Source: a virus
Strand: one strand, 5' to 3'
IMG/VR virus record: IMGVR_UViG_3300008624_000009
Coordinates: 1-62,365 of that record
Length of the DNA stretch: 62,365 nucleotides
The first letter of the stretch is position 1, and every line of letters begins with the position of its first letter. Both the position numbers and the translations under genes were made by a program. The notes under the pieces were generated by a model. The model searched no databases, was not told the origin of the DNA, and worked only from the letters and a program-made list of their open reading frames with translations. Of the stretch, positions 14,795 to 55,973 are shown in pieces.

Positions 14795-17700
14795 ATGTCT
14801 AATAATATTACAATCAATACAAATCAGAATCCTTACTTTGATGATTTTGATGATGATAAGAATTTTCATCAAGTTTTATATAAACCATCTCTACCAGTAC
14901 AGGCTAGAGAATTAACTACGCAACAGAGTATTCTTCGCGATCAAGTTAAAAAGTTTGGTGATCATATTTTTAGAAATGGTAGCAAGGTAACTGGTGGTGA
15001 ACTTGTTTTAAATTTGGACTATGAATATGTTAAATTAAAACCACAATACAATGGAGTAGATATTAATGTATCTGGTTTTACTGGAAAAACAATTATAGGT
15101 TCACAGACAGGTACTAGGGCTATTATACTTGGATATTCAGAAAAGGATGCTGTTACAGGTGATCCTGATACTGTCTATGTTAAATATATTACTGGTGGTT
15201 CTGTTACTAATAGTTTACAAGGAATAAGTATATCTAATCAAGGTGATGGTTATACAGTTGCACCAACAGTTCAAATATCTGGTAATGGAACTGGTGCTGA
15301 AGCAGAAGCTATTATTAGTTCAGGAAAAGTTATTGCAATTAATATTACAAACAGGGGAACAGGATATACTAGTGTTCCTACAATTACTTTATTTGGTGGT
15401 AATGGAAATGGAGCTATCGCAGTTGCTAGTCTGGAAACTTCTCCACAATTTTTAGCAGGAGAAAGAATATATGCTTCCGACTTAACTATGTCGGCAGATA
15501 TTGTTGACTCTACTCCTACTAGTATTAAATCTATTACAGTTACGAAAGGTGGTGCTGGTTATACTGAGGCACCAGTTGTAACGATTGCTAATGCTCCTAC
15601 TGACGGTACTACTGCTACAGCAGCTGCAACTATAAGTAATGGTGTCGTAACTGCCGTTACAGTAATTACACAAGGTTCTGGTTATACATCACTTCCAGCA
15701 GTAACTATTGCAAATGCTCCAGCCGGTGGTGTTAATGCAACAGCAGAAAGTGTTTTAGCAACAGCTGTTGGTAAGGGTAGTTCTGCATCTATATCAGAAG
15801 GTGTGTTTTATCTTAATGGTAATTTTGTTAAGGTAGGACAACAAACATTAGTATTAGATAAATATTTTAATGATCCTACATATCGGGTTGGACTTTCTGT
15901 AACAGAAAAAATTGTAAATTCTGGTGATGATGCTACTCTCCTTGATAACTCACAAGGTTCTTCAAACTTCGCAGCTCCTGGCGCAGATAGATTAAAGTTA
16001 TCCTTAACTCTTTCAAAGAAAACAATAGACTCAACAGATGATACGGATTTTTATGAACTTCTGAGAGTTAATAAAGGTGTTAAGGAAAAAAATATTCAAG
16101 TTCCTATATATTCTACTTTAGAAGATACATTTGCTAGAAGGACTTTTGATGAGTCTGGAAGTTATACTGTAAGGTCTTTTAATATTCAATTAAAAGATGA
16201 TCCAGAAGATAATTCAAAATTTATTGTTAGACTAGATCCTGGCAAAGCATTTATTGAGGGGTATGAATTTGAAACATTAGTTTCTCAAGATATTAAATTA
16301 GATAAAGCAAGAGAAGTAATGAATGTTAGTGGTTTTGACCGTTTAATGCAATACGGCAACTATGTCGTTTTAAAAAATCTTAATGGTTTATTTAATATTG
16401 CTGATCATAAGGTAGTAGATTTACATAATGTAACCCATTCTAATATAGATTTAAATAATTATAGTAATACGAAAATAGGAACAGCAAGAGTACGAAGTAT
16501 TGATTTTTCTTCTTCTACTGCTGGAGCAGATAGAATATTTAATTTATATGTTTATGATATAAAAATGTCTAGTTCTAAATTTTCTGCTGTTGAATCTATT
16601 GTTTATACAGATGATGCTGCTGCTTCTACTGTTACTCTTGATGCTAAAGCAGATATTGATAATACAGGTAAGGCTGGTGCTGTTGTTGATGGTGATACAC
16701 AGGTTTTTGAAACATCTGATAATTCTCTAGTCTTTAAACTTCCTCAACATACTATAAAAACAATTCGTGGTCTTAATAATGTAATAGATACAAATTATAC
16801 TGTTAAAAAAGTTTTTCAAGCAGTATCATTTACGAATGGTGTAGCAACTATTGCTACTGCTGGTGCATCTGAAACTTTTGTTGGTACTGGACAATTATCT
16901 GATTCTGTTAAACGAGAAAATTATCTTGTAGTAATTAAGTCTAGTGGAACATCTGGATTAGCTGCTGGAACTTTAGTTCGATTTGATACTTCTGGTACAA
17001 GTATTGAAGTTCCTGGCCCTCAGAATACAACAGCACAGTTCAACGCTAATACTTCTACAAATTTTACAGCAGATATTATTGCTACGGTAAATGTTAGTGG
17101 TAAACAAGAAAGAGTAAAAAATCTTACAAAGAATAGTACGTTGACATTTGCTACACCAAGTACTGCTGCAACTGTAGCAAATTCCCTTAACAAATCAGAT
17201 GTATGGAAAATAAAAGGAGTATTTGATTCTGGTGCTCTTGGTTCTACTCCATTATTACCAACCCTTACTGTTGATACTACTTCTGATACTTTAATTCCAG
17301 GCGAGATTATTACAGGACAAACTTCTGGTGCTAAAGGAACAGTTATTCTTGGTGCTGGTGGAACAACGGATGTTACATATGTTCCTGTATCTGGTACGTT
17401 CGAGGCATCAGAAAATATTACAGGTGAAGAAAGTGGTTTTACTAAAGAGGTTTCTGCTGTTGCAGAAGGTGATACTAATATTACTTCTAGTTATGAATTA
17501 GACACAGGACAGAGAGATAATTTATATGATTATGGAAGTGTTAAATTAAAAGTAGGAGAAACAGCACCTACTGGACAAATTACAGTTGTTTTTGATTTCT
17601 TTACACATACTGGTTCTGGCTATTTATCAGTTGATTCTTATACAGCTGCTATTGGTTTTGATAATATTCCAAAGTATTCAAGTCCAGTAACAGGTGAAGA

Positions 17701-37619: not shown

Positions 37620-37627
37620 TATAAATA
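37620..37627 (+). promoter_or_regulatory. T4-type late promoter
   Basis: An exact TATAAATA, five bases after the preceding stop, leads the run of seven propeller genes (37666-46178). No further exact octamer occurs inside that run, so it probably forms one transcript. Confidence 0.78.
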
Positions 37628-37665
37628 ACAATAAAGATAAAAACATTCAAAAAAGGATATAGTCC

Positions 37666-38805
37666 ATGAGTGTAACGAAGGTAACTAACGATAATATAGT
37701 TGATATTTCTGCTGAAACAGTAAGTGGTACTTTACCAGCATTAAACGCAAGTGCAGTTTTAAATATGCCTACTGGTGAATCAATCATAGAATCAGCAAAT
37801 GATCCAGCTTTTGATTCCGATTTAGAATTAGGAAAAATGTGGTTGAATACGACAAACGGTGAAATGTTTGTTTGTACTGATGCTACGCCAGGGCTCAATG
37901 TTTGGAAAAATATTGCAGCTGGTTCTGACCATGTAGAGCCTCCTTTTCAATATGCGGGTACACAAACTGCTTGGATTGTTGGTGGTCATGCAAGTATGTC
38001 TAATGTCGATAATATGGAAACATTTTCATTAACTTCTGATGGTAATGCTACAATGTTGAGTGATGTTACCATGAATAATAATTATGCAGCTACTGGGACA
38101 AAATCAAATACTAGTGGTTATATTCTCGGTGGCGGGTGGCCTATTAATAGCGATATAGAAAAATATTCTTTTGAAAGTGGTGGAGATTCAACAAATGTAG
38201 GTACACTTAATACAGGAAGATATTGTATTGCTGGATTTTCAACAGGATCACATGGTTACGGTGTTTCTGGACTTCTAACTTCAACTGGTAGTGGAGCAGT
38301 AGATAAATTTTCATATAGTAATGAAGGCAGTGCTGTTGAGGTTGGTAATATGCCTTCTACGGGTTATGCTGCTGGAGTTACCGGCCCTGATAATGGTTAT
38401 ATCTATACAGGAAACGGAAATTCAGATATTGAAAAATATACTTATGCATCTGATAGTAGTGCTGTTCATTCTACTATGTATAATACAAGACATTCCCAAG
38501 CTTGTCATTCTACTTCAACTCATGGATATAGTTCTGGTGGGCATACTGGATCATGGGTATCTACTATTGATAAATTTTCATTTGCAAATACTAGTAATGC
38601 AGTTCATATTACGGATTTAGCATATGATAAATGTAGATGTCATGGTTATTCATCTGAAACACATGGATATACAAGTGGTGGATCTTCTAATCAACCTGGC
38701 GGTCCAGAAAGATTAGAAAAATTTTCATTTGCATCTGAAACTACTGCAACAATAATTGGTTCATGTATTAATAGAGATTCTTGGTCTAGTGGTACACAAT
38801 TTTAA
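37666..38805 (+). CDS. Six-repeat beta-propeller adhesin 3
   Basis: This adhesin has 379 residues. The anchor is VTKVTNDNIVDISAETVSGT with the collar LGKMWLNTTNGEMFVCTDAT at about 47-66 and a WKNIAAG end. Six blades follow, with cores METFSL, IEKYSF, VDKFSY, IEKYTY, IDKFSF and LEKFSF, and HGY..GG turns between them. The C-terminus is SSGTQF. The anchor is nearly identical in DNA to that of the next gene. It is the first gene of the seven-gene propeller run behind its late promoter. Kelch-type blade geometry is inferred from the repeat pattern. Confidence 0.75.
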   Translation: MSVTKVTNDNIVDISAETVSGTLPALNASAVLNMPTGESIIESANDPAFDSDLELGKMWLNTTNGEMFVCTDATPGLNVWKNIAAGSDHVEPPFQYAGTQTAWIVGGHASMSNVDNMETFSLTSDGNATMLSDVTMNNNYAATGTKSNTSGYILGGGWPINSDIEKYSFESGGDSTNVGTLNTGRYCIAGFSTGSHGYGVSGLLTSTGSGAVDKFSYSNEGSAVEVGNMPSTGYAAGVTGPDNGYIYTGNGNSDIEKYTYASDSSAVHSTMYNTRHSQACHSTSTHGYSSGGHTGSWVSTIDKFSFANTSNAVHITDLAYDKCRCHGYSSETHGYTSGGSSNQPGGPERLEKFSFASETTATIIGSCINRDSWSSGTQF

Positions 38806-38820
38806 AAAAGGAAATTACAA

Positions 38821-39966
38821 ATGTCTGTAACTAAAGTAACTAACGATAATATAGTTGATGTTTCTGCTGAATTAGTAAGTGGTACTTTACCAGCATTGGA
38901 TGCAAGTGCAGTTTTAAATATGAATACTGGTGAATCAATAACAGAATCAGCAAATGATCCAGCTATAGATTCTGATTTAGGATTAGGGAAATTGTGGTTG
39001 AATACTACAAATGGCGAAATGTTTGTTTGTACTGACGCAACGGCTGGACTTAATGTTTGGAAAAATATTGCAGCTGGTGCTGATCATGTAACACCCCCAT
39101 ACTCATTTCAAGGTACTCAGAGTGGATGGGTTACTGCTGGTAATGCTGCTGATAATACTTTTGAAACTTATTCTCTTGCTTCAAATAATAATGCAGTAGC
39201 ATCTGGCAGTACTTTAGGGACTGTTACAGAAGGCCCTGTTATTTCTAAATCTAAAACAGATATGTATGTCATGGGTGGTTATGTGCCTGGGGCACTTATT
39301 ACAGATGTCCAAAAAGTTTCATTTTCAACTGCTGCAGCATCATCTACTGTTAATAATTTAAATTCAGGAAAATATTGTGGTGCTGGTGCAAGTAGTGAAC
39401 TTAGAGGGTATCAAATCGCTGGTTGTGATGGTCATGACCATGTTGAATATCAAAGTCATGTAAACGACGGCGATAGTGCTGATATTGGTAATTTATATCA
39501 AAATGAAGCTGGATTTGCAACTTCTATGTCTGGGCCAACCGAAGTTCTTACTGATGTAGGTTGGTATAATCTTAATGCCGTTCATCATTTTTCATTTGCA
39601 AATGATGCTACTAAAACCAAACATTGTGATATGGTTGGGAATGGTTATGCACAAGGCGGTTGTTCATCAACCACACATGGTTATACTGCGTCTGCTCATC
39701 AATGGCGTACTACGATTAGGAAAGTAGGATTTGCTAGTGGTTCAACACAGATTAATCATCCTACTTTAGCAGTAACAAATCAAATGGGTTCTGCTGGTTG
39801 TGGTACTTGTTCAGAAACTCATGGTTATCAAAATGGGGGTTATCCTGATAACGGAAATAGTAATACTCATTATATTGAATCATGGAGTTTTGCTAGTGAA
39901 AGTGGAGTATCACATATTGGAAATCTCACACAAAAAAGAGCTTGGAGTGTAGGAGCACAAAATTAA
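38821..39966 (+). CDS. Six-repeat beta-propeller adhesin 4
   Basis: This adhesin has 381 residues. The anchor (VTKVTNDNIVDVSAELVSGT, LGKLWLNTTNGEMFVCTDAT) is almost the same as in the preceding gene, whereas the propeller differs in nearly every loop. Blade cores are FETYSL, VQKVSF, HVEYQS, VHHFSF, IRKVGF and IESWSF. The third blade is degenerate. A GCGTC Cys pair and YQNGGYPDNGN precede the last blade, and the C-terminus is SVGAQN. The leader AAAAAAGGAAATTACAA is shared with other copies. It looks like one half of a tandem-duplicate pair. Confidence 0.75.
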   Translation: MSVTKVTNDNIVDVSAELVSGTLPALDASAVLNMNTGESITESANDPAIDSDLGLGKLWLNTTNGEMFVCTDATAGLNVWKNIAAGADHVTPPYSFQGTQSGWVTAGNAADNTFETYSLASNNNAVASGSTLGTVTEGPVISKSKTDMYVMGGYVPGALITDVQKVSFSTAAASSTVNNLNSGKYCGAGASSELRGYQIAGCDGHDHVEYQSHVNDGDSADIGNLYQNEAGFATSMSGPTEVLTDVGWYNLNAVHHFSFANDATKTKHCDMVGNGYAQGGCSSTTHGYTASAHQWRTTIRKVGFASGSTQINHPTLAVTNQMGSAGCGTCSETHGYQNGGYPDNGNSNTHYIESWSFASESGVSHIGNLTQKRAWSVGAQN

Positions 39967-39994
39967 ATTTATAAAATAAAAAGGAAAATAAAAA

Positions 39995-41197
39995 ATGGCT
40001 GTAACCAAAATCACAAAAGAAAATATTAGTGATGTATCAGCAACTAAATTAACTGGTTCACTTCCTGCTATTGATGGACAATACATTACGAATGTACCAG
40101 CTGGTGAGGTAATGATAAAATCAGCAGCAAATCCAACTAATACCTCTAATCATTCTGCTGGAACCATGTGGGTAAATACAACAAATGGCGAAATCTTTGT
40201 TTGTACTGATGCTTCGACAGATGAAAATACTTGGACAAATGTTGGGCCTGGAACAACTGAAGTTGCAACAGTAGTGTGGACATATCAGGGAACACAATAT
40301 GGTTATGTAGTTGGGGGTTATCATGGTAGTCCCGGCCGTAATGATGAAATCGAAAGATATTCTTTTACTTCTAATAATGTTAATAATAATATTGGTAGTT
40401 TGATAGCACTTAATACAGTTCCTAGTGGACATAGTAGTACTGATTATGGATGGGTAACTGGTGGATGGAATGGTGCTGATATTACTACTATCGAAAAGTT
40501 TTCTTGGGCTTCATCAGCAAGTTCTGCTGCAACTGGAGCAACTGTTGGTGGTAATATGTCTTTGGCTACTGCAGCTAGTACTCAGACTGGGACTACTGCT
40601 TATTTAACAGGTGGATTTGATAATCCGAATGTTACAACTCATCATACTACTAGGAAATTTTCATTTGATTCAACAACAGATGCTGTTATCGTAGGAACTA
40701 TGGCATTTTCTGGTGGAATTTATCACAATATTGGTTGGTCTTCAGATACACATGGTTATTCTGCAGGCGGATATCCTTATGGGCGTTCTCCAAATACTGT
40801 TTCTCACATTGAAAAATTTGCATTTGCAACAGATACACAACAAGCTGTTGGTTGTGGAGATCTTGCTTCACCAGCTTCATATGTTTCTGGTTCAAACTCT
40901 ACAACGTATGGTTATCGGGATGGTGGATGGAATGGTGGTAGTTATACAGCAAATATGGAAGCTTATTCTTTTGCATCAGAAGGTACTGCTTCTACAATAG
41001 GTGTTCTTACTTATGCTCGTAATTGGTCTGGTGGCTCATCATCAACTACGCATGGTTATCATCATGGCGGTAGAAATACTAGTGGTACTTATATGACAGA
41101 TGTTCACCAATATTCATATGCATCACACGGTAATGCTAATAATATAATGAATGTAGCAACAGCACGTGGCGGAGTTCCTAGTAATATACAATTTTAA
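39995..41197 (+). CDS. Six-repeat beta-propeller adhesin 5
   Basis: This adhesin has 400 residues. The anchor is AVTKITKENISDVSATKLTG with the collar AGTMWVNTTNGEIFVCTDAS and NVGPGT. Six blades have cores IERYSF, IEKFSW, TRKFSF, IEKFAF, MEAYSF and VHQYSY. Turns carry many Gly, His, Trp and Asn residues (DYGWVTGGWNG, THGYHHGGRNTSG), typical of sugar-contacting loops, though no binding site is proven. The C-terminus is VPSNIQF. Its first 66 bases are identical to those of the next gene, marking a second tandem pair. Confidence 0.75.
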   Translation: MAVTKITKENISDVSATKLTGSLPAIDGQYITNVPAGEVMIKSAANPTNTSNHSAGTMWVNTTNGEIFVCTDASTDENTWTNVGPGTTEVATVVWTYQGTQYGYVVGGYHGSPGRNDEIERYSFTSNNVNNNIGSLIALNTVPSGHSSTDYGWVTGGWNGADITTIEKFSWASSASSAATGATVGGNMSLATAASTQTGTTAYLTGGFDNPNVTTHHTTRKFSFDSTTDAVIVGTMAFSGGIYHNIGWSSDTHGYSAGGYPYGRSPNTVSHIEKFAFATDTQQAVGCGDLASPASYVSGSNSTTYGYRDGGWNGGSYTANMEAYSFASEGTASTIGVLTYARNWSGGSSSTTHGYHHGGRNTSGTYMTDVHQYSYASHGNANNIMNVATARGGVPSNIQF

Positions 41198-41218
41198 TAA
41201 AATAAAAAGGAAAGTAAA

Positions 41219-42454
41219 ATGGCTGTAACCAAAATCACAAAAGAAAATATTAGTGATGTATCAGCAACTAAATTAACTGGTACGCTTCCTGCTATTGATG
41301 GACAATTTCTGTCTAATTTACCAGCTGGTGAGATAATGGTGAAATCAGCATCAAATCCAACTAATACTGCAAATAATTCTGCTGGAACCATGTGGATAAA
41401 TACTACAACTGGCGAAATGTTTGTTTGTACTGATGCGACAACAGATGCTAATGCTTGGACAAATGTTGGGCCCGGTGAAACAGAAGTTACAACATCATAT
41501 GCTCCTGCTGGTGAACAAGGAATGACATATGGATATGTGTGTGGATCACATACTGGAGCAGGGATGGATCCATTGGCAGCAATCGACAAATATGCTTTTG
41601 CAAGTGCTAGTAATGGAATTGCTAATGTTGGTTCTCTTTCTACGACCAGAAATGGGCCAAATACTAATCATTCATGGACTCATGCTTTTATATCAGCAGG
41701 TGCTCAAAATGGGAATGATTCAACCATAGAAACTTTTGCATTTGCTTCTGATGGTGCTTGTACTAATTGGGCTGACATGGCTGCCCATACTCAGTATGGT
41801 TATGGTTGTGGTTCTAGTGATAAAGATGGTGGATATGGTTATTTAAATGGGGGAAGAAGAACAAGTGGTAGTGGGCCATCATATACAACTAATAAAGTTT
41901 CTAGGTTTCCATTTGCATCTCAATCAAATGCTACTAATATTGGTACTTTGCAAATGTGGCAAGATTGCCCAGGCAATACAGTAGATAGGGTTAATGGTTA
42001 TGCTAATTATCATGGTGGTGCGGATGCGGGTTCTAATCATTTACCAAGTTATAATTATAGATATGCATTTGCATCAAGTGTTAGTTCATCTCAATTTTCT
42101 AATATGTTATCTGGAAATTGGCATTATTATGGAGAAGGAAGTCAAAGTGCTACTGATGGTTTTTTAGCTGGTGGATATGAACCATCCACAGCTAATTATA
42201 CAGCAGCTCAAATTCAACAACATTCATTTGCAAGTCTTTCTAATAGTGTTCTATGGGGTTCATTAACACATGGCAGATATGCTGCAGCGTGTCATTCATC
42301 ACCCGATCATGGATGGAGTGCTCATGGAATGGCAGGTTCGGGATGGAATCAAAATTGTCTGGATAAATTTTCATTTGCTTCATCTGGTAATTCTATTGAT
42401 GTGGGAGATATGTTATTTCAACCTAGATGTTATAGTCCTGGCGTTCACGTTTAA
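41219..42454 (+). CDS. Six-repeat beta-propeller adhesin 6
   Basis: This adhesin has 411 residues. It shares its anchor with the previous gene (AVTKITKENISDVSATKLTG; collar AGTMWINTTTGEMFVCTDAT) but has an independent head. Blade cores are IDKYAF, IETFAF, VSRFPF, YNYRYAF, IQQHSF and LDKFSF, with Trp/Gly/Ser-rich connecting loops (GNWHYYGEGSQSATDG). The C-terminus is SPGVHV. The fourth blade has lost the usual I-x-K core, while overall spacing keeps six units. It is transcribed in the seven-gene propeller run and its Shine-Dalgarno is AAAAAGGAAAG. Confidence 0.75.
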   Translation: MAVTKITKENISDVSATKLTGTLPAIDGQFLSNLPAGEIMVKSASNPTNTANNSAGTMWINTTTGEMFVCTDATTDANAWTNVGPGETEVTTSYAPAGEQGMTYGYVCGSHTGAGMDPLAAIDKYAFASASNGIANVGSLSTTRNGPNTNHSWTHAFISAGAQNGNDSTIETFAFASDGACTNWADMAAHTQYGYGCGSSDKDGGYGYLNGGRRTSGSGPSYTTNKVSRFPFASQSNATNIGTLQMWQDCPGNTVDRVNGYANYHGGADAGSNHLPSYNYRYAFASSVSSSQFSNMLSGNWHYYGEGSQSATDGFLAGGYEPSTANYTAAQIQQHSFASLSNSVLWGSLTHGRYAAACHSSPDHGWSAHGMAGSGWNQNCLDKFSFASSGNSIDVGDMLFQPRCYSPGVHV

Positions 42455-42478
42455 TTTTAATAAAAAAGGAAATAAAAA

Positions 42479-43672
42479 ATGTCGTCAACTAAAATACAAG
42501 ATACTGTTATAGAAAGTTTAGATGCTAGTAAACTTACAGGAACATTTGGAGCAATAGATGGAAGTAATTTAACAAATTTGCCTCCATCTGGTGAAGTTAT
42601 AACAAAAGATACAGTTAATCCAGAAGCAAATAGTAATCCAGCAACTGGTGTAGGTACACTTTGGTTAAATACGCAAGATGGTGAAATGTATTGTTGCACA
42701 GATGCTACTACTGATGCTAATGTTTGGAAAACTGTTAGTACTTCTTCTGGTTCAGGTGGTTCTGGTTCTCCCGCTCCGGCAAATGAATCTTTTGTGATGG
42801 GTGTAAGTGATGGATATATGTCTGGTGGAGAAAATGATGCAACAGGTATAGATGTTCACAAAGTATCTTTTTCAAGTGATGGTGATGCTGCAGATCATGG
42901 TGATTTAACAGAAGCAAGAAATGCTGTTTGTGGATCCTCATCTGGTACACATGGATATATGATGGGTGGCTATAAACCCGGCTATCCTAGTAGTGCATCA
43001 ACCAGAGTTGATAAATTTGCTTTTGCTAGTAATGCATTTGGTACACAAGTATCAAATTTGCCTTGGGGTGATTTTAATTGTGCTGGACATTCATCATGGG
43101 CAGAAAATAAAAGTTTTATGAGTGGTGGATCTTATTATGGTCATGCTGTTCTTTCTTGGGGTCATGCTACAGACAATTCGATAGGACATCCACTAAACTT
43201 ATCAGGTACTAAAAATGAACACGCAGGTACTAGTTCAGCTACACATGGTTATTTAGCCGGAGGCAATCCTAATAATGGTATGCAAAAATTTCAATTTGCA
43301 AGTGGATATGCTGTTTCTGCCGGTATTGGAAATTTACACACTTATGTTCAGGAAATGGGTTCTTCAAATTCAGCTGACTGGGGTTATACTCATGCTGGTC
43401 ATGATGGAAGTTGGAACAATACAGCTACAATTCAAAAACACTCTTTTGTTTCAGATGGAACTGTTGGATTTGTTGGCAATTTATCAGAACCAAAAAATGC
43501 AAGTGGTGGTTTTTCTTCAACAACATATGGTTATTGTGGAGGCGGAAAACCAGCTGCTGGTGGACATACTGATAGAATTGAAAAATATCCTTTTGCTTCA
43601 GATTCAGGTGCTAGTACTGTTGGCGTTTTAATGAATCAATTACAACATCTTCCTGCTGGAAATCAAGTTTAA
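42479..43672 (+). CDS. Six-repeat beta-propeller adhesin 7
   Basis: This adhesin has 397 residues. The anchor is more divergent (SSTKIQDTVIESLDASKLTG) but keeps the collar VGTLWLNTQDGEMYCCTDAT. A Gly/Ser/Pro linker (SSGSGGSGSPAPAN, about 90-104) separates anchor and head, which is longer than in other copies. Blade cores are VHKVSF, VDKFAF, VLSWGHA, MQKFQF, IQKHSF and IEKYPF, again six. The C-terminus is PAGNQV. It is the only member of the run without a near-identical neighbour, so its anchor may be older or of mixed origin. Confidence 0.74.
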   Translation: MSSTKIQDTVIESLDASKLTGTFGAIDGSNLTNLPPSGEVITKDTVNPEANSNPATGVGTLWLNTQDGEMYCCTDATTDANVWKTVSTSSGSGGSGSPAPANESFVMGVSDGYMSGGENDATGIDVHKVSFSSDGDAADHGDLTEARNAVCGSSSGTHGYMMGGYKPGYPSSASTRVDKFAFASNAFGTQVSNLPWGDFNCAGHSSWAENKSFMSGGSYYGHAVLSWGHATDNSIGHPLNLSGTKNEHAGTSSATHGYLAGGNPNNGMQKFQFASGYAVSAGIGNLHTYVQEMGSSNSADWGYTHAGHDGSWNNTATIQKHSFVSDGTVGFVGNLSEPKNASGGFSSTTYGYCGGGKPAAGGHTDRIEKYPFASDSGASTVGVLMNQLQHLPAGNQV

Positions 43673-43696
43673 ATTATAAAAAAAAGGAAATAACAA

Positions 43697-44941
43697 ATGG
43701 CTGTAACTAAAATAACAGATGAAAATATAGTTGATGTTGATGCTTCAAAACTAGTAGGTTCTTTTGGAACGCTGGATGGTTCTAATTTGACTAATGTAAC
43801 AGTAGGTAAAACAGTTACTAAAGCAACTAGTGATCCAACACAGGAAACAAATCCTGCTGATGGCGTAGGAACATTATATTTGAATACTTCTAGTGGTGAG
43901 CTATTCTGTTGTGTAGATGCTACTACGGATTTTAATGTTTGGAAAAATACTGGATTAGGTACAACAGGTACAATAAAATATGTAGTTCCGAACAATTATG
44001 TATATCAAGGAACACAGAATGGTTATTCATTGGGTGGGCATTTAGATTTTGGTGATATTCAAAAGTTTTCATTCACATCTAATGGAAACAGTACAACTAT
44101 TGGCCAATTAGCTTGGTCTACTTATAATGGTGTAGGAAGTCAGAGTGAAACAGATGGTTATAAATGTAAAGGAACAGATTGGGGTGGTACACCATCTTCA
44201 CGATATGATATTCAAATGTTTTCATTTGCTTCTGAAGGTAATTCAGTAGCTACTGGATTTTATGCTTTGGATGCGGGTACTGAATATTCACATGGTGGCT
44301 CTTCTAGTTCCACAGACGGAATCCATTGTTATTTTACTGGTGGTTGGAATAGTACTCTCGGTGGTGGTATTACTGCTATTCAAAGTTTTTCATTTCCTGC
44401 AACATCTGATGCTATTGATGTTGGTGATTTAAGTACAGATGCCAATTCTGGCTGGGGTTGGTCATATGATAATACCTATGGTTATCATGCTGGTGGTTGG
44501 GGAGATAGTAATGGGGGTGAAAATGTAAAAAGAATACAAAAATTTCCATTTGCTCAATCTGGTATAGCAGGTTCAGTTATCAGTTCTGAATTAACAGTTG
44601 CAAGACGGCATTGTAACGGACAAGGTATATGTTCAACAACTCATGGTTTCGTAGCGGGTGGAGATACTGGGAATAATAATGAAACAAATGTTATTGATAA
44701 AATGTCATTTGCAACAGAAGCAACTATGACAGATCATGGCGATTTAAATTATGCTGTTTCTTATATGGCTGGAAACGCAAGTTCAACAACTGATGGCTAT
44801 GTTTTTGGTGGACAGTATATGCCAAATTATACGAAAGTAGATCACATTCAAAAATTTGCATATTCGTCTAATACAACTGCTAGTGATATTGGAAATATAT
44901 CAGCGGGTCCTCTTAAATCAGTTGCAGGATGTCATAACTAA
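43697..44941 (+). CDS. Six-repeat beta-propeller adhesin 8
   Basis: This adhesin has 414 residues. The anchor is AVTKITDENIVDVDASKLVG with the collar VGTLYLNTSSGELFCCVDAT and NTGLGTTG. Six Kelch-like blades have cores IQKFSF, IQMFSF, IQSFSF, IQKFPF, IDKMSF and IQKFAY. The C-terminus is SVAGCHN. Its first approximately 275 bases are nearly identical to those of the next gene, yet the next gene carries the other blade class. It is transcribed in the propeller run and has the shared leader AAAAAAGGAAATAACAA. Confidence 0.75.
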   Translation: MAVTKITDENIVDVDASKLVGSFGTLDGSNLTNVTVGKTVTKATSDPTQETNPADGVGTLYLNTSSGELFCCVDATTDFNVWKNTGLGTTGTIKYVVPNNYVYQGTQNGYSLGGHLDFGDIQKFSFTSNGNSTTIGQLAWSTYNGVGSQSETDGYKCKGTDWGGTPSSRYDIQMFSFASEGNSVATGFYALDAGTEYSHGGSSSSTDGIHCYFTGGWNSTLGGGITAIQSFSFPATSDAIDVGDLSTDANSGWGWSYDNTYGYHAGGWGDSNGGENVKRIQKFPFAQSGIAGSVISSELTVARRHCNGQGICSTTHGFVAGGDTGNNNETNVIDKMSFATEATMTDHGDLNYAVSYMAGNASSTTDGYVFGGQYMPNYTKVDHIQKFAYSSNTTASDIGNISAGPLKSVAGCHN

Positions 44942-45240
44942 TAAGTCTTTAAAAAGGAAATAACAAATGTCTGTAACTAAAGTAACAGATGAAAATATAG
45001 TTGATGTTGATGCTTCAAAACTAGTAGGTTCTTTTGGAAATGTTGATGGTTCTAATTTGACTAATGTACCTCTTGGCAAATCAATTACTAAAACAACTAG
45101 TGATCCAACACAGGAAACAAATCCTGCTGATGGCGTAGGAACATTATATTTGAATACTTCTAGTGGTGAGTTATTCTGTTGCGTAGATGCTACTACGGAT
45201 TTTAATGTTTGGAAAAATACTGGATTAGGTACAACAGGTA
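43697..45240 (+). repeat. Duplicated anchor-coding block (43697-43970 and 44967-45240)
   Basis: Two direct copies of about 274 bases, 1270 bases apart, encode the anchors of adhesins 8 and 9. Long stretches are identical, for example the segment coding ASDPTQETNPADGVGTLYLN-type sequence. Shared bases extend upstream into the ribosome-binding leader. Similarity stops abruptly where the propellers begin. Confidence 0.8.
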
Positions 45241-46178
45241 AGATTGAATTTTCTTCTGGGCCACAATATTTTGGAAATAGAGGATTATTTTTTGGTGGTA
45301 ACTGGACTCAGATGACAACTGATGCTATTCAATATCTTAGTATACCATCATTAAGTAATACAACTACATTTGGTGATTTAAATAGGTATCATCAATCAAG
45401 GCCTGGATGTTTATCTAATGGAACACGAGCAGTTTGTGTTGCTGGTAATATGGATGGGCCGAATACAGGAATGGATTATGTTACAGTAGCAACACCTGCT
45501 ACTTCACAAGAGTTTGGAACATTTGCTTATGCTAATACTTATCTTGATGCTGTAAGTAATGGAACAAGAGGACTTATTACTCCTGGCGCATATGGTAGTG
45601 CTAGTATGCCTATGGAATATATTACTGTTCAAACTAATGGTAATTCTACAACTTTTGGTTCTGTTGTATTTAGTAATGGTTCATATGATCAGCATTGTGG
45701 ATGGATGCCAGTTGTTGGTAATGGTACTAGAGCAATAATGTTGGGTGGTTATCCACATACTCCAAATGGCCCTCTCATTGGTGGAATTATAAGTTATGTA
45801 GTTATAGCTACTCAGAGTAATGCATCTCAATTTGGTACTTTAAATCAATATAGATACGGTGCAGCAGGATTAAATGATAGAACTTATGGTGTATGTTGGG
45901 GTGGACAATATTATGATAATGGTTATATTCCAGCTGGAAATGAATGGATAACAATGGCAACAAATGGTAATGCACTAGTATTTGGTGGAGTAACTGTGAG
46001 CCATCAAAACGATACAGGTGCCTGTTCAAATTCAGAAAGAGGTGTAATACAAATGTATACTAATAATGAAATTGAATATATGACAATGGCAAATCCAAAT
46101 GCTAATGCTGTTGTATTTGGACAAAATTCTATATCATCTAATCAAGCTGGTTGTGGTGCAACATCAGGTAATGCATAA
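44967..46178 (+). CDS. Six-repeat propeller adhesin 9, second blade class
   Basis: This adhesin has 403 residues. The anchor is almost identical to that of the previous gene (SVTKVTDENIVDVDASKLVG; collar VGTLYLNTSSGELFCCVDAT). From about residue 95 it changes to blades of a different class, with the core 'M-E-Y-I-T-V-x-T-x-x-N-x-x-x-F-G' and turns 'S-N-G-T-R-A-V'. Cores are IQYLSI, MDYVTV, MEYITV, ISYVVI, NEWITM and IEYMTM, again six. The C-terminus is ATSGNA. It resembles the 53520 protein in blade type. The junction between anchor and head is sharp and gives the best single example of head replacement in this window. Confidence 0.75.
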   Translation: MSVTKVTDENIVDVDASKLVGSFGNVDGSNLTNVPLGKSITKTTSDPTQETNPADGVGTLYLNTSSGELFCCVDATTDFNVWKNTGLGTTGKIEFSSGPQYFGNRGLFFGGNWTQMTTDAIQYLSIPSLSNTTTFGDLNRYHQSRPGCLSNGTRAVCVAGNMDGPNTGMDYVTVATPATSQEFGTFAYANTYLDAVSNGTRGLITPGAYGSASMPMEYITVQTNGNSTTFGSVVFSNGSYDQHCGWMPVVGNGTRAIMLGGYPHTPNGPLIGGIISYVVIATQSNASQFGTLNQYRYGAAGLNDRTYGVCWGGQYYDNGYIPAGNEWITMATNGNALVFGGVTVSHQNDTGACSNSERGVIQMYTNNEIEYMTMANPNANAVVFGQNSISSNQAGCGATSGNA

Positions 46179-46179
46179 T

Positions 46180-46187
46180 TATAAATA
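46180..46187 (+). promoter_or_regulatory. T4-type late promoter (first of pair)
   Basis: An exact TATAAATA, two bases after the adhesin 9 stop codon, is followed 33 bases later by a second copy. Both point at the 46256 helical protein gene. Confidence 0.74.
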
Positions 46188-46212
46188 ATGCAGATAAGAG
46201 TAAAATGAGTAT

Positions 46213-46220
46213 TATAAATA
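46213..46220 (+). promoter_or_regulatory. T4-type late promoter (second of pair)
   Basis: This second exact TATAAATA stands about 36 bases before the ATG of the helical 278-residue protein, a more usual distance than the first copy. A similar double promoter stands after the paralogous gene at 55137. Confidence 0.75.
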
Positions 46221-46255
46221 CAAGTAATTATTAAATTATTTTTTTAGGAGTCAAC

Positions 46256-47092
46256 ATGAGTGAAGAAAAAAGTGAATCAAAAGATTTAGTTGTAAATACA
46301 TTTAAAAATGATTCTCTTGCAACAAAGTATGAATCATATGGTGGAAAATCATTAGTTCAAAATTTACAAAATGCTGAACTTGCAGTAAATAAGGTTAAAT
46401 ATACAGAACGCATTTGGGATAGGTCAAGAAGTCAATTTATGTTGAAACACTTGACTTGTTCACAAGCTGATGATTGGACAAGACTACGACAAGTCTCTGC
46501 TGAGATGGCAAGTAAACGAATGGCTCTTAATGAAGCAAAATTTGGTTACATGGAAGCAGTTACAAAAACTAAAATCAAAAGACAAAAAATTGATCAAGAG
46601 GATGATCCTCTTAAAAGAGAATTACTTGAAATTCAAGTTGCTAGAATGGAATCAGGTAATGCAGAGCTTTTGGTTAAAGTTGAAGGTGCTTTAAAAGAAA
46701 TTGAAACTCTTGGGCAAATGCATGACCAGTTGAAAGATATTATTGGTGATGTTTCTGAGGAAGAATTTGAAAAAGCTCAAGTTTTATCACATATTAAACG
46801 TGCTATGACACAAGCAATTCGTGAAGTTAGGGAACGGGGAACTATTGGTTGTGGTAATCAGGAATATTTAGAACAAGTTGGTGTTTCTGTTACAAATGCA
46901 CATAAGGAAATAAGAGAGTTTTTAGCACAAGAAGCAAGTACGGGTGTTGCTAATACTTCATTATTACACTCTTTTGTTAATGATTTTGCAGATAGGCATG
47001 AAGGAGTAGCAATACAACAAGCAGACTTTTTAGGATTTTCATTAGATGCAAATAAATTATTAACGTACACACCAGAAGAAGAAAACCAATAA
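46256..47092 (+). CDS. Helical 278-residue protein A (paralogue of 55137)
   Basis: The predicted protein is almost all alpha-helix with long charged heptad stretches (about 60-190). The same length and a matching middle occur in the gene at 55137: 'SKR.AL.EA.F', 'VE.A.KEI...', 'E.DFE'-type and 'EY.EQ.G' motifs. It contains LSHIKRAMTQAIREVRERG at about 180-198. There is no signal peptide, membrane segment or catalytic motif. AGGAG precedes ATG 46256 and twin late promoters sit just upstream. The function is unknown. Its placement after adhesin arrays suggests an assembly or anchoring role for them. Confidence 0.65.
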   Translation: MSEEKSESKDLVVNTFKNDSLATKYESYGGKSLVQNLQNAELAVNKVKYTERIWDRSRSQFMLKHLTCSQADDWTRLRQVSAEMASKRMALNEAKFGYMEAVTKTKIKRQKIDQEDDPLKRELLEIQVARMESGNAELLVKVEGALKEIETLGQMHDQLKDIIGDVSEEEFEKAQVLSHIKRAMTQAIREVRERGTIGCGNQEYLEQVGVSVTNAHKEIREFLAQEASTGVANTSLLHSFVNDFADRHEGVAIQQADFLGFSLDANKLLTYTPEEENQ

Positions 47093-47108: not shown

Positions 47109-48860
47109 ATGTATATAGGAAAACCATACCAAAGTACCGCTGTACCAAGTAAAACATTTGATACTTTTACTGGTAACGGATCAATAACAACATTAACATT
47201 ATCACAAACACCATCTTCTGTTAATAATGTGTTTGTATATTTTGATGGTGTTGCTCAAAGACCAACTACGGATTATACCTTAGCTGGAAATACATTAACA
47301 TTTTCTTCTGCTCCTTCTAATGGTGTTGTTGTTTTTGCAATAGTAGGTGGTGGAGAACATATTTCTACACCTATGGGTGGTTCAATAGGTGCTGAAGATA
47401 TTGTTGATGCTGCTATTACTAATGCAAAAATAACATCTGTTGATGCAAGTAAACTTAGTGGTAGTGCATTTCCAGCAATTAATGGTGCTAATATTTCAAA
47501 TCAATTTGAACAAGCTAGTCCTTTTATAGAATCTACATCTGATCCTGCTATAGATAGTAATTTGACATTAGGAACAGCATGGCTTAATAAAACGACTGGC
47601 AATATATATATTTGTACGGATGCTACGACAAACGAAAATAGTTGGCAAAGTGTCGGTGATGGTTCTGGACATATATTAAAAAATCAACTACCTGGCGAAG
47701 CTACTGATGATGTACCTAATATAGAAGAAAGTACAACATTGAGTCATACCTTTACTGGTGGTACTGATGCAGACGGTACTGTTACACACTATGTCGTAGA
47801 TCAAATCTCTGATCCTATTTTATCAGTTGCTGCTTCAGAAGTTGCTGCTGGTTCAGCACATGAATTTACTGCTTCAGCAGTTAGTGGTGATACGAATGTT
47901 ACATTTCGTGTAAGGACAAAGGATGATGCTGGTATGTATAGTCCCGGCATAACTGTTACCGTAACCGTAGAAGATTATGTACCTTTTTGGTCAAATTATG
48001 CTCAAATGCACGCATATAGTGCTGGTGGCTGTTGGGGACACGATAAAATTGAAAGATTTTCAGTATTAACGGATGCAAATAATGCTGAGATTGGTACACT
48101 TTCTCTTGCGGTGGAATATGGAACGGGTACAAATAGTATATCACATGGATATATTTACGGTGGGGTAAATGATTGGGCTAATGGGTCTGAAAGTGTTGTG
48201 CAGAAAGTTCAATTGGCTGCATCAGCGAGTTCTTCTAATATATCTAATATGGTGAAACATTCTTATCAGCATGGTGCTGCTAATGAAGAAAATTATGGAT
48301 GGAAGTTTGGTGGTGATAGTACTCCTGATCCAGATTGGCGGATTCTTGAAAAACAATCTTATGCTTCTGATTCAAATATGACTAGTCCAGGCAATATGGT
48401 TGGTGGTGATCGTGGTAATATGAATGATGGAGTTTCTGGCCCTACACATGGATTTGCTATTGGTAATAATTATTATTCTTGTATTGATAAATGGTCTTAT
48501 GCTTCTGGTACAGATGCAGCAGATCATGGTGATAATTCTGAATATAGGTCAGGTGTTGCTACACAATGGACTACAACTCATGGTTATTTAAGTGGTGGAT
48601 ATAAATTAGGTGTTGGATCTAAAACCCATGTTGATAAATTTTCTTTTGCTAGTAATTCAACTGCTACACAAGTAGGAAATATATCGAGTTACAGATATGG
48701 TAATCTTCAAGGATGGTCTACACAAACTCATGCATATACTGGTACTGGTTATGGTGGTTATAAAACAGTTGATAAATTTGCATTTGCAAGTGAAGGAACA
48801 GCAGCACATTGTTCAGACTTACTTAATAATACAGTAGGTGCATCTAGTTTTCAAAGATAA
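47109..48860 (+). CDS. Six-repeat beta-propeller adhesin 10 with Ig-like insert
   Basis: This adhesin has 583 residues. Residues 1-80 are MYIGKPYQSTAVPSKTFDTF plus one beta repeat (VYFDGVAQRPTTDYTLAGN). Then come AITNAKITSVDASKLSG and the collar LGTAWLNKTTGNIYICTDAT. Residues about 195-290 form an extra Ig/cadherin-like domain (ESTTLSHTFTGGTDADGTVT, VTFRVRTKDDAGMYS). The propeller has six blades with cores IERFSV, VQKVQL, LEKQSY, IDKWSY, VDKFSF and VDKFAF, and the C-terminus is VGASSFQR. It combines three modules seen separately elsewhere and is the longest propeller protein here. Confidence 0.75.
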   Translation: MYIGKPYQSTAVPSKTFDTFTGNGSITTLTLSQTPSSVNNVFVYFDGVAQRPTTDYTLAGNTLTFSSAPSNGVVVFAIVGGGEHISTPMGGSIGAEDIVDAAITNAKITSVDASKLSGSAFPAINGANISNQFEQASPFIESTSDPAIDSNLTLGTAWLNKTTGNIYICTDATTNENSWQSVGDGSGHILKNQLPGEATDDVPNIEESTTLSHTFTGGTDADGTVTHYVVDQISDPILSVAASEVAAGSAHEFTASAVSGDTNVTFRVRTKDDAGMYSPGITVTVTVEDYVPFWSNYAQMHAYSAGGCWGHDKIERFSVLTDANNAEIGTLSLAVEYGTGTNSISHGYIYGGVNDWANGSESVVQKVQLAASASSSNISNMVKHSYQHGAANEENYGWKFGGDSTPDPDWRILEKQSYASDSNMTSPGNMVGGDRGNMNDGVSGPTHGFAIGNNYYSCIDKWSYASGTDAADHGDNSEYRSGVATQWTTTHGYLSGGYKLGVGSKTHVDKFSFASNSTATQVGNISSYRYGNLQGWSTQTHAYTGTGYGGYKTVDKFAFASEGTAAHCSDLLNNTVGASSFQR

Positions 48861-52000: not shown

Positions 52001-53494
52001 ATGTCATATATAGGAAAAGATGTAAAAAGTGTATCAACTGCTAACATAACAGTTGATTCAATGACGGGAGATGGTTCTGCTAATACATTAGCATTATCGC
52101 TAACGATGGTTGATTCAATATATGATGTAGCAGTTTATATAGATGGAATTGCTAGAACTCCAGGCATAGATTATACATTATCAAATACAACAATAACTTT
52201 TGCAACACCCCCTAGTGTTGATCAAAAAGTTGTAGCTATATCAACAGGAGATGCACTAAAGGATAATGTTATAGATAACTCATTTACGGTTGATAGTATT
52301 AAAGATAATTCTATTACAGATGCAAAAGTTGTTGGATTAGATGCAAGTAAATTAACTGGGGCATTACCCGCAGTAGATGGTTCTGCAATAACTGGCATAG
52401 ATGGTACGATTGCTATAATACAACAATCCTATAAACCTACTTATAATGCTGATGTTGGAGAAGGAGCTATATGGCTAAATACTTCAACTGGCCAATTTTA
52501 TGTTTGTACTAATGGTACTCCTGGCAACAATACTTGGGTCAATGCTGGAACTGGTACTGGACTTATTGAGTACGTGCCTTGGTCTTATACAGGAACATTG
52601 TCTGCACATACATTTGGTGGATATATTGCTCATTATGGTACTGATATGATACAAAAGTGGAATTTTGCTTCAAATTCTGGTGCATCACATAAAGGTAGTA
52701 TTGAAGGAGCTGGGGGTCGTGGAACAGATGGTCCGATTGGTGTTTCTGGTGCTACACATGGGTACGTTTGTGGTGGTCATAGTGCTGATACTGGTGGTTA
52801 TGTATCAAATATATCTAAAGTTGCTCATGCTACAGAATCAGAAAGTTCTGTTAATACTGGTGCTAATTTGTCAAATTCTAGGTCTAATACTGATGGAATT
52901 GGATCAGAAATTGCTGGTTATGTTTTTAATGCTTATCCATATACAACTGCTATTGATAAATTTTCTTTTGCTAGTGATGGTAGTTGTTCTGCTGTGGCTA
53001 ACACAGGTGTACCTGCTCATGGGACTCAAGGACAAGCTTCAACAACTCATGGATATTGTTCTGGTGGGCATGATTGGGTAGCTGGAGCTAAAATAACAAC
53101 AATACAAAAATTTGATTTTGCATCAGATTCGGATTCAACATCAGTAGGAGATATAGCAGGTGTTGGTAGATATATGGGAGCAGGATGTAATTCTGTAACT
53201 CATGGTTATGTAGCTGGTGGTCAGAAGGGTAATCCTTCTGCAAGAGTGTCAACTATTGATCAATTTTCTTTTGCTAATGAAAACAATTCAGTAGGACACG
53301 GTGATTTAGCAGGTATAAGATATGGAAATGCTGGACATTCTTCAACTACTGATGGATATAGTTCGGTTGGTGGAACCGCATATAATGGTAAACAAAATGA
53401 TATTCACAAATTTTCCTTTTCATCTAATACAACCGCAGTAGGACATGGCAACGCTGGTATGTCCGTTTATATGGCTGGTGGACACCAATATTAA
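52001..53494 (+). CDS. Six-repeat beta-propeller adhesin 11
   Basis: This adhesin has 497 residues. Residues 1-85 are MSYIGKDVKSVSTANITVDS plus one beta repeat (AVYIDGIARTPGIDYTLSNT). Shaft units follow (SFTVDSIKDNSITDAKVVGL), then the collar EGAIWLNTSTGQFYVCTNGT. Six Kelch-like blades have cores IQKWNF, ISKVAH, IDKFSF, IQKFDF, IDQFSF and IHKFSF. The C-terminus is MAGGHQY. The anchor is longer than in adhesins 3-9 and like that of adhesins 10 and 12, so the family has two anchor lengths. The next gene is its tandem partner with a different blade class. Confidence 0.75.
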   Translation: MSYIGKDVKSVSTANITVDSMTGDGSANTLALSLTMVDSIYDVAVYIDGIARTPGIDYTLSNTTITFATPPSVDQKVVAISTGDALKDNVIDNSFTVDSIKDNSITDAKVVGLDASKLTGALPAVDGSAITGIDGTIAIIQQSYKPTYNADVGEGAIWLNTSTGQFYVCTNGTPGNNTWVNAGTGTGLIEYVPWSYTGTLSAHTFGGYIAHYGTDMIQKWNFASNSGASHKGSIEGAGGRGTDGPIGVSGATHGYVCGGHSADTGGYVSNISKVAHATESESSVNTGANLSNSRSNTDGIGSEIAGYVFNAYPYTTAIDKFSFASDGSCSAVANTGVPAHGTQGQASTTHGYCSGGHDWVAGAKITTIQKFDFASDSDSTSVGDIAGVGRYMGAGCNSVTHGYVAGGQKGNPSARVSTIDQFSFANENNSVGHGDLAGIRYGNAGHSSTTDGYSSVGGTAYNGKQNDIHKFSFSSNTTAVGHGNAGMSVYMAGGHQY

Positions 53495-53519: not shown

Positions 53520-55091
53520 ATGGGATTTATAGGAAATAACTTAAAAAATGTATTAACAGAAGCAAAATCTGTTGATACAATGACGGGTGATGGTTCTACT
53601 ACTACAATAACATTATCTAAAACGCCCGGTTCTGTTAATAATACTACTGTTTTTTGGGATGGTGTATTTAAAACTCCAATTACAGATTATACTTTATCAG
53701 GAACTACAATTACATTTGGAACAGCACCAGCACAAGATGTTCATGTAATGGTGTTTAGTGGTAATGATAGTTTAGTTGAAAGTCCAGAAAATATTACTGT
53801 TACATCTAGTATGATTGCTGATGGTTCTATTACATCTGATAAAATTGCTACGGTAGATATAAATAAATTAGATGGAACATTACCCGCTGGAGTAGATGCA
53901 TCAGCATTAACAGGAATGCCCGATCTTCCTAGTTTATATACAACAGTTTCTGCTTCTAGTCCAACAAGGACATCTAATCCTACGGGTGGCGTAGGAACAA
54001 TGTGGATCAATTCAACAGATGGAGAACTTTTTGTATGTGTTGATGCTGGAACAGATAATAATGAATGGCGGAATGTTGGAGAGTCGCAAGAATCAGATAA
54101 TGTTGCACCAGCACCACAATATCTTGGTGATATAGGAATGTGGATGGGTGGATATACTGGTACTGGTTTTTATGGTACTGATAATACTCATTCTATGGTT
54201 ATACCAACCCAAGCCAATACAGTACTTTTTGGAAGTACAACTTATGGTCATGGTGATATGCCCGGTGTGTGTTCAAATGGAACACGAGCAGTTGTTGCTG
54301 GTGGTTGGAATAATCATAATGGTTATGGTAGAACTCCTGTAATAGAGTATGTTACAATCGCAACGCCAGGTAATGCTACTTGGTTTGGCAATCTTACTTG
54401 GGGAGGGCAAACATCTTGGGGTACTCAAAATATTCATGGAACAGGAAATGGAACAAGAGGTATATACAATACTGGAGCATATGGTGGTTCAAGTGGAGCT
54501 CCATCACCTAGAAATATGCAATATATAACGGTTGAAACACCAGCTAATGCTCAAGATTTTACTTCTGATAATATGACTTATGGAGGTGGACAACACCGAT
54601 GGCAAGCTATATGTAGTAATGGTGTTAGATGTGTTATATGGAATGGTTATTATTATGGTGATGAAACTAATTCTGGTAACTTGACAGGCCCAATTAGATA
54701 CATTAATATGGACACCACAAGTAATTCAATATCATTTGGAAATCAAGCAGGAAGGGGACTTGGTGGAGTTGGACTTAATGATAGAACATATGGTGTTTCT
54801 TATCATAACAAGAATGGTTGGACACAATGTGAACCTGCTGAGTACCTTACTATGGCTACTGAAGCTAATGCACAATTTTTTGCTAATCAGTATTCAGATA
54901 GATATTTATCACCTGCTGTTTGCACAGATACAGCAAGTCGTGCAGTTATTAAGTCTGGATTTTCAGCAGGTTGGGGTGGAGTATCAGGTACAGCAGAAAT
55001 GGTACAATGTAATAAACCTGATCAAAATGCTGTATTTTGGTTAAGTCTCGGTACTCGTAATCATCCAGGCGGAGCATCTGGAAACGGATAA
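53520..55091 (+). CDS. Six-repeat propeller adhesin 12, second blade class
   Basis: This adhesin has 523 residues. The anchor (MGFIGNNLKNVLTEAKSVDT, a beta repeat with VFWDGVFKTPITDYTLSG, a KI shaft unit, and the collar VGTMWINSTDGELFVCVDAG) parallels that of adhesin 11. The head is of the 'IEYVTIATPGNATWFG / SNGTRAV' class, as in adhesin 9. Cores are THSMVI, IEYVTI, MQYITV, IRYINM, AEYLTM and AEMVQC, six units. The C-terminus is GASGNG. The leader AAAGGAAATAACAA matches those of the 37.7-46.2 kb run. It is a second instance of adjacent genes with like anchors and unlike heads. Confidence 0.75.
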   Translation: MGFIGNNLKNVLTEAKSVDTMTGDGSTTTITLSKTPGSVNNTTVFWDGVFKTPITDYTLSGTTITFGTAPAQDVHVMVFSGNDSLVESPENITVTSSMIADGSITSDKIATVDINKLDGTLPAGVDASALTGMPDLPSLYTTVSASSPTRTSNPTGGVGTMWINSTDGELFVCVDAGTDNNEWRNVGESQESDNVAPAPQYLGDIGMWMGGYTGTGFYGTDNTHSMVIPTQANTVLFGSTTYGHGDMPGVCSNGTRAVVAGGWNNHNGYGRTPVIEYVTIATPGNATWFGNLTWGGQTSWGTQNIHGTGNGTRGIYNTGAYGGSSGAPSPRNMQYITVETPANAQDFTSDNMTYGGGQHRWQAICSNGVRCVIWNGYYYGDETNSGNLTGPIRYINMDTTSNSISFGNQAGRGLGGVGLNDRTYGVSYHNKNGWTQCEPAEYLTMATEANAQFFANQYSDRYLSPAVCTDTASRAVIKSGFSAGWGGVSGTAEMVQCNKPDQNAVFWLSLGTRNHPGGASGNG

Positions 55092-55136: not shown

Positions 55137-55973
55137 GTGAGTGAAAATGAAACAGAACAATCATTAGCAATATCAAAAACAGTAGTTAATGATTTAATAC
55201 CCAATACAAGCATAAGTCAAGAAGCTTTAACTAAAATTTGTAATAGATTACCAGAATTAGAAAGAGCAAAGGGGGCAGTAGGTAGAACTAATAGTCAAAC
55301 AACAGCTACATTAATGACTATGACAATGTTAGCAGATAGTCCTTATCGTCAATTAAAACAATGTTTAGCACAGATAGATTCTAAAAGAAATGCTTTGATT
55401 GAGGCTCATTTTAAAACCCAAAAAACTCATGTTAAAATTAAAGAATGGGAACAAAAGGGTGATGAATTAAGTTTGATAAAGATACAAGAAGCTGAAAGTG
55501 GTATGAAACAAATGAGATCAAGTGTTGAAAATGCTATGAAAGAAATTGGAATGTATCAAGATATGTATGATAAAATTCGTGATGCAAACGGGATACCTGA
55601 GAATTGGGATGAAAAAGATTTTGAATCATCTGAAATTGCAAATGCAATTAGAATGGGTTTTAGACAAGCAATTCAGAATTTAATGTCAAGTGATAGAATT
55701 GCAATATCAACTGTTGAATATTGGGAGCAATTTGGTATTCATCCAATGGTAGGTGAAAAATTAACTAGAGATTATATGAATAGTGTTCGTGCAGAAATAA
55801 ATGAGAATAAGCTCCCAAGTGTTCAAAGTATGCATATATTTTTAGAGCAAATGGTTGAAACATTTAAAAATGAACATCAACATTCATTAAAGAGAATGGG
55901 TTTAGAAAAGATTGTAAATGAGGATTATATTTACAAAAAACCAGTAAGTACTGATAAACATCTTGAAGAATAA
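55137..55973 (+). CDS. Helical 278-residue protein B (GTG start, paralogue of 46256)
   Basis: The frame starts at GTG 55137, nine bases after AGGAG. An ATG at 55130 in another frame gives only four codons. The choice is supported by the N-terminus MSENE, parallel to MSEEK in the paralogue. It is 278 residues long, like its relative, and similarly helical. The shared core is R-x-L-K-Q-x-L-A-x-I-D-S-K-R-N-A-L at about 80-96 and VENAMKEIGMYQDMYDKIRD near 130-149. NGIPENWDEKDFE follows. No catalytic motif was seen. The function is unknown. Both copies close a group of propeller genes. Confidence 0.65.
   Translation: MSENETEQSLAISKTVVNDLIPNTSISQEALTKICNRLPELERAKGAVGRTNSQTTATLMTMTMLADSPYRQLKQCLAQIDSKRNALIEAHFKTQKTHVKIKEWEQKGDELSLIKIQEAESGMKQMRSSVENAMKEIGMYQDMYDKIRDANGIPENWDEKDFESSEIANAIRMGFRQAIQNLMSSDRIAISTVEYWEQFGIHPMVGEKLTRDYMNSVRAEINENKLPSVQSMHIFLEQMVETFKNEHQHSLKRMGLEKIVNEDYIYKKPVSTDKHLEE

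Follow-up and report, generated by a model that had tools for sequence, protein, structure and literature searches.

Two neighbouring genes of an uncultivated marine phage, named here 43697 and 44967 after their start positions, carry near-identical N-terminal anchors and propeller heads of two different sequence classes. Recombination at the anchor, with head joining and anchor copying taken together, very probably produced this arrangement. It is well supported, because the similarity between the genes breaks off sharply, the codons of the heads are saturated whereas those of the anchors are near-identical, and the trees of anchors and heads conflict. With moderate confidence, gene 44967 can be regarded as the recombinant, an anchor of the 43697 type bearing a class B head of separate ancestry, with the head as the moving part. 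The window, by which we mean the whole stretch of 62,365 bases analysed, is a virus record and represents an incomplete genome.

In pelagimyophages and cyanomyophages, the segment from VrlC to the neck gene gp14 holds a hypervariable island of tail fibres (PMC7029224). The fibre array of the window lies likewise between a VrlC homologue and homologues of gp13, gp14 and gp15, numbers used here as names for the neck and sheath-stabiliser matches (Table 1), so that the genes sit where pelagimyophages keep their hypervariable host-recognition cluster. The content of this locus differs among six related contigs, some of them partial. The array locus appears to match the known host-recognition cluster of pelagimyophages. 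The cited study treats the island as a whole, and its main text does not use the words propeller, kelch or glycine (PMC7029224). T4-type baseplate genes are present at 8096, 9927 and 13272, and the best cultured relative of the baseplate wedge is that of HTVC008M (38%). Beside the baseplate genes, positions 3001-4467 resemble a ribosomal protein S6 glutaminyl transferase (PHROG 2599, E 4e-12). Two more class A propeller genes, lacking the short anchor and with overlapping reading frames, stand near the VrlC end at 28647-31017.

The 91-residue anchor is common to seven consecutive genes (37666, 38821, 39995, 41219, 42479, 43697 and 44967) and is repeated at a spacing of 1,155 to 1,270 bases. 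Six of the seven bear class A heads, and class B is found in 44967 only. The coordinates of the reading frames 43697-44941 and 44967-46178 were verified. Genes 46256-47092 and 55137-55973 encode paralogous 278-residue proteins, each placed after a group of propeller genes, and homologues in relatives keep this position. The product of 46256 is 83% and 68% identical in amino acids to its homologues in the related contigs G001 and G002; that of 55137 is 77-78% identical to its homologue in L015 and 74% to that in G002, and has a weak PHROG match to tail fiber assembly (E 0.0042).

Table 1. Features of the fibre locus and its borders, with positions counted in the window.
Feature	Position	Strand	Remarks
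VrlC homologue	14795..20407	+	left border of host-recognition cluster; 41.5% over 771 aa to VrlC of Pelagibacter phage HTVC008M
Array gene 1 (class A head), its anchor paired with that of 38821	37666..38805	+	anchor 88.2% DNA, -20 to +270; heads sisters 98/96
Array gene 2, class A head	38821..39966	+	
Array gene 3 (class A head), its anchor paired with that of 41219	39995..41197	+	88.8% DNA, -29 to +276; first 63 bases identical
Array gene 4, class A head	41219..42454	+	
Array gene 5, class A head, anchor unpaired	42479..43672	+	anchor 55% aa identity to 43697
First copy of the direct repeat: anchor of 43697, codons 1-91	43697..43970	+	94.5% to 44967 anchor including leader, break at +274
Class A head of 43697 (KFSFAS/THGY), predicted six-bladed Kelch-like propeller	43971..44941	+	AlphaFold2 model
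Second copy of the direct repeat: anchor of 44967	44967..45240	+	1270 bases downstream; anchor-tree sister of 43697, 100/98
Class B head of 44967 (EYITVAT/NGTRAV), predicted six-bladed Kelch-like propeller	45241..46178	+	nearest head is that of 53520; head tree 100/98
Conserved gene directly after the seven-gene array	46256..47092	+	likely right flank of exchangeable slot
Long-N-terminus fibre gene, class A head	47109..48860	+	
Long fibre	48945		between the 47109 and 52001 genes
Long-N-terminus gene, class A head	52001..53494	+	part shared with 53520 is old
Long-N-terminus gene, class B head	53520..55091	+	nearest head to that of 44967
Conserved gene directly after the second group	55137..55973	+	paralogue of 46256 (26% aa)
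gp13/gp14/gp15 homologues	59647, 60395, 61258		neck and sheath-stabiliser matches

An earlier note on this DNA held that the first 275 bases or so of 43697 and 44967 are nearly identical and that similarity then stops, and the alignment bears out both statements. Local DNA alignment extends from -16 to +274 with 274 of 290 bases identical (94.5%), 16 mismatches and no gaps. Along the diagonal, a single change point fits best at +274 (2-log-likelihood interval 272-274), where identity falls from 98% to 39%, a sharp drop and not a gradual decay. The near-identity needs some refinement, as the anchor is itself mosaic: 12 of the 16 mismatches lie in one 54-base stretch, and none of 5000 shuffles was as clustered. 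The shared ribosome-binding leader does match from -16, but this is uninformative, because AAAAAGGAAATAACAAATG-like leaders also stand upstream of 32755, 38821, 42479 and 53520. Across 151 within-contig pairs of anchored genes (14 contigs), the anchors of 43697 and 44967 are the most alike; among the 43 within-contig pairs whose heads differ in class, they are the only near-identical anchors, the next standing at 0.63.

Two further pairs, which the earlier note did not mention, share this anatomy, namely 37666/38821 and 39995/41219 (Table 1). The identical start of the latter pair has P = 1e-4, and, like the mismatch clusters of 43697/44967, it appears to be a trace of recombination inside the anchors. 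All three young-anchor pairs consist of adjacent genes, as do 4 of 105 matchings when six of the seven genes are matched at random (P = 0.038).

The ages of anchors and heads were compared through synonymous codons, at aligned positions with the same residue and with Met and Trp excluded; unrelated codons are expected to be about 55% identical from codon usage. Identical codons make up 77 of 80 in the anchors of 43697/44967 and 39 of 73 in their heads. The corresponding counts are 60/75 and 46/93 for 37666/38821, and 63/69 and 46/86 for 39995/41219. The neighbours 42479/43697 are old throughout (29/48 in the anchor, 46/92 in the head). A contrast between young anchors and old heads cannot arise from selection on the protein sequence, but can arise from recombination or from a conversion tract that ends at the anchor end. 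The pair 52001/53520 had been put forward as the same class switch with a looser anchor. Its head classes do differ, but the two halves of the shared 5' part are only 44% and 36% identical in amino acids, with 29/43 and 18/29 codons identical, near the level expected for unrelated codons. Both halves are of old divergence, and the pair is not a second recent case.

The trees of the two gene parts disagree, with the caution that the anchors are short (87-95 columns) and that 52001 and 53520 form long branches. Genes 43697 and 44967 are sisters in the anchor tree (31 rows, 100/98), which contains five changes of head class, two of them forced by starred branches. The head tree (28 rows) separates classes A and B (100/100) and groups 44967 with 53520 (100/98), with L015 next. 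The AU test rejects both conflicting groupings: a clade of the 44967 and 53520 anchors has p = 0.007, and a clade of the 43697 and 44967 heads has p = 1.5e-49. The heads of 37666 and 38821 are sisters, while those of 39995 and 41219 have an AU p of 0.057 against being sisters.

The two head types had been described as different blade classes. They do form two deep sequence classes, but the models predict that both are of a single six-bladed Kelch-like propeller fold. The class A head of 43697 was modelled with AlphaFold2 at a mean pLDDT of 77.4 and aligned by VIA-align to 7ong (Z 37.9, rmsd 2.2, 289 aligned); the model of the class B head of 44967 has a mean pLDDT of 76.8 and aligns to 7on7_B (Z 29.9, rmsd 2.6, 269 aligned). 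Kelch-type six-bladed propellers such as KEAP1, KLHL12 and the designed SAKe6 thus have the fold of both predicted heads, but only 9-16% sequence identity to the heads of the window. The Pfam Kelch cut-off is not reached, the best Kelch_1 score being 17.9 bits against 20.1 (gene 39995), with no match for 43697 or 44967. A class A profile picks up 44967 at E 2e-7, and the A and B labels follow the higher of two HMM scores, because the class A model recognises many genes of class B as well. The short anchor has no name in Pfam or PHROGs and no relative in the PDB, where the single match (E 0.82) is not meaningful.

Comparison with relatives shows that the genes 43697 and 44967 are not kept as one block. 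Flanking genes are shared with the window by G001, G002, L015, L017, L027 and G007. The slot before the 46256 homologue holds a class B head in the window, a glycine-rich head in G001 (PF21722, E 1.5e-21) and a class A head in G002. The slot before the 55137 homologue holds a long N-terminus with a class B head in the window, a short anchor with a class B head in L015 and a class A head in G002; the class A gene of L015 ends at the contig end, and the anchor comparison excludes it. DNA identity between the window and G001, counted per 30 bases, is 13-17 up to 46159, 20-22 at 46160-46219 and 25-30 from 46220 into 46256, so that similarity rises some 36 bases before the start codon of 46256. This profile and the slot contents indicate a slot bounded on the left by the anchor and on the right by the conserved gene 46256.

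Within viral contigs, the anchor family comprises 108 non-redundant genes, whose heads are of class A in 40, glycine-rich in 41, class B in 11, of other kinds in 11 and too short to class in 5; the glycine-rich label denotes a match to a home-made profile or a glycine content above 25%, and the seven such genes run against Pfam were all PF21722. Class A and glycine-rich heads in relatives look unrelated. The anchor motif also precedes heads judged by eye to resemble LamG/concanavalin domains, at L011:7416-8957, L031:7902-9785 and L034:7614-9665, of which L011 has no Pfam match. A wider tree of 89 anchors excludes 19 of the 108 genes (11 with other heads, 5 short and 3 with anchors under 45 residues), and its three head classes require 11 changes, where 2 is the least possible and 35 the mean of shuffled labels. 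Class B alone needs at least 5 changes over starred branches. Anchors and heads have therefore been re-paired repeatedly, but far from freely.

A search for a donor at close identity found no other viral contig that joins this anchor to another head or this head to another anchor. The only close carrier of either part in viral contigs is a second contig of the same phage, besides one anchor match of 43% (L011), and a search with a degenerate anchor pattern returned the G001 record only. The heads nearest to that of 44967 are 36-39% identical, so no recent head import is visible. Cultured phages gave no DNA match to 43600-46300 and no tblastn match for 44967, the class B head of L015 or 55137, in searches whose BLAST low-complexity masking may miss repeats. 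Gene 52001 matched four cultured records, mainly the Synechococcus phage S-SKS1; in this cultured cyanophage (L120:47-6192), class A type propeller repeats extend over several reading frames, some unannotated. Genome contigs yielded no relative of the class B heads. A class B scan of viral contigs matched 469 stretches, of which 79 loci were kept, and tandem arrays of class B propeller genes, with as many as ten members, occur in many viral contigs (L037-L114). The neighbouring class B genes L080:1030-2217 and 2262-3662 have matching heads (local DNA 82.6%), and the first part of their N-terminus differs in length and sequence; this pair looks like the converse of 43697/44967.

The favoured reading is that an anchor of the 43697 type, about 91 residues long, acquired a class B propeller head through homologous recombination within the anchor, with a second crossover either in the leader that follows or within the conserved gene 46256. 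The recombination would be of the ordinary homologous kind of phages. The array would then be a row of cassettes, in which every gene presents a single receptor-binding head on the shared attachment end, and the repeated anchors would permit the gain, loss or replacement of heads, both inside a phage genome and from one genome to another. From place and fold, the anchor probably attaches to the virion and the heads probably bind host surfaces. Movement of the head rather than of the anchor is suggested by the differing heads that relatives carry in corresponding slots and by the identity over the full length of the anchor. The claim of head exchange at a conserved anchor is upheld as far as recombination is concerned, by the sharp break, the codons and the tree conflict; its direction is less firm, as copying of the anchor fits these data too.

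Anchor copying is a serious, if less probable, alternative. Gene conversion between neighbouring paralogues would have put the 43697 anchor over that of a resident class B gene, and all three adjacent pairs would have been treated likewise in a form of concerted evolution. In favour of such copying, the young-anchor pairs are all neighbours, the heads are saturated in all three, the 37666/38821 heads are sisters though their codons are saturated, and mismatches cluster as in patchy conversion; the lack of a donor and of any close head weighs against the joining of heads. Given the adjacency of the pairs and the sister heads of 37666/38821, local copying of anchors fits at least as well as the joining of heads. 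However, the identity continues through the entire anchor up to the very point at which homology stops, and conversion between anchors about 55-60% alike should often stop inside the anchor. Nor does copying alone explain the other head types in the slot of relatives, and both processes may act.

Duplication of a whole gene in tandem, with fast divergence of the head under selection, purifying selection on the anchor and no recombination, is very unlikely. The sister heads of 37666/38821 indicate that this pair may have begun so, and duplication is still possible there if the anchor was later converted. For 43697/44967 it is contradicted by the sharp break, by the rejection of their heads as sisters, and by synonymous codons, which nearly all agree in the anchors but agree in the heads no more often than unrelated codons would. 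An assembly chimera, in which the assembler collapsed or joined two genes at a repeat, is slightly less probable still. Near-identical repeats of 290 bases, such as those present here, are where short-read assemblies break. Yet both genes are intact, the flanking order is sensible, and the second contig of this phage (IMG/VR 3300009370_000098), which may share reads and is not fully independent, agrees with the window over 21,209 bases with 1 mismatch, 43697 and 44967 included. Variable heads on a constant end, as seen here, are typical of invertase switches and diversity-generating retroelements, but a programmed switch, either an inversion of the Mu, P1 or carotovoricin type or such a retroelement, has next to no likelihood, as no inverted repeats of at least 24 bases occur in 37600-46300 and neither a resolvase/invertase (PF00239) nor a reverse transcriptase (PF00078) was found in the 62,365 bases of this incomplete genome.

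Head exchange behind a conserved N-terminus is already well known from described systems (PMC10684548, PMC13195805). In the domain mosaicism of receptor-binding proteins presented by Smug et al. (2023, PMC10684548), a near-identical N-terminal part, recent by its identity, is followed by different C-terminal receptor-binding parts, as in 43697/44967. The examples given there come from different phages and have non-homologous ends, whereas in the window both forms adjoin in one genome and the heads are distant relatives. Under the strict definition of such a mosaic, the shared fragment is at least 90% identical, and the two anchors stand at 90% in amino acids (94.5% in DNA with the leader); the remaining parts, unrelated under that definition, here have one fold. 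The tsp1-tsp4 genes of Ackermannviridae are similar in that each genome holds several receptor-binding genes with similar 5' ends; the source describes four spikes with XD/TD linker domains, against seven consecutive propeller genes with a 91-residue anchor in the window (PMC11414711). The branched spike complex of that family is defined by its XD2/XD3 and TD1 domains. The fibre loci of the Pectobacterium carotovoricin also have a conserved N-terminal part and a remainder exchanged by recombination, but carotovoricin is a tailocin with an invertase, and the sections of the source that cover it describe no tandem array of fibre genes (PMC13195805). A search of the open-licence literature found no paper describing propeller fibre genes that stand in tandem and share an anchor. 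The new elements are the tandem form within a single genome, a junction located to three bases, three neighbouring pairs that differ in age between anchor and head, and relatives whose heads in one and the same slot are either propellers or glycine-rich.

A broader proposal, which we put forward only tentatively, is that the array is a recombination-ready repertoire, in which near-identical anchors about 1.2 kb apart act as direct repeats for the constant deletion, duplication and import of receptor-binding heads in a marine phage population. If so, the repertoire would include at least three kinds of head, the two propeller classes and a glycine-rich domain, and single genomes would be snapshots of a shared pool of heads. 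A laboratory parallel to the joining of a head to an existing anchor is the Ackermannviridae phage S117 provided with a fifth spike gene, for which a tsp4/tsp5 recombinant was described that combines the N-terminus of TSP4 with the receptor-binding domain of TSP5 (PMC11414711). Swapping of tail-fibre heads is known mostly from the comparison of different cultured phages, and here the two products adjoin in one uncultivated marine phage, with a clear age gap between the halves. Recombination between the 290-base repeats is predicted to remove exactly 1,270 bases and still yield a functional gene. Should reads reveal these 1,270-base deletion variants, the turnover of head repertoires in ocean phages could become directly measurable. 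Swapped heads on a shared anchor point to recombination as the way in which these phages re-equip themselves.
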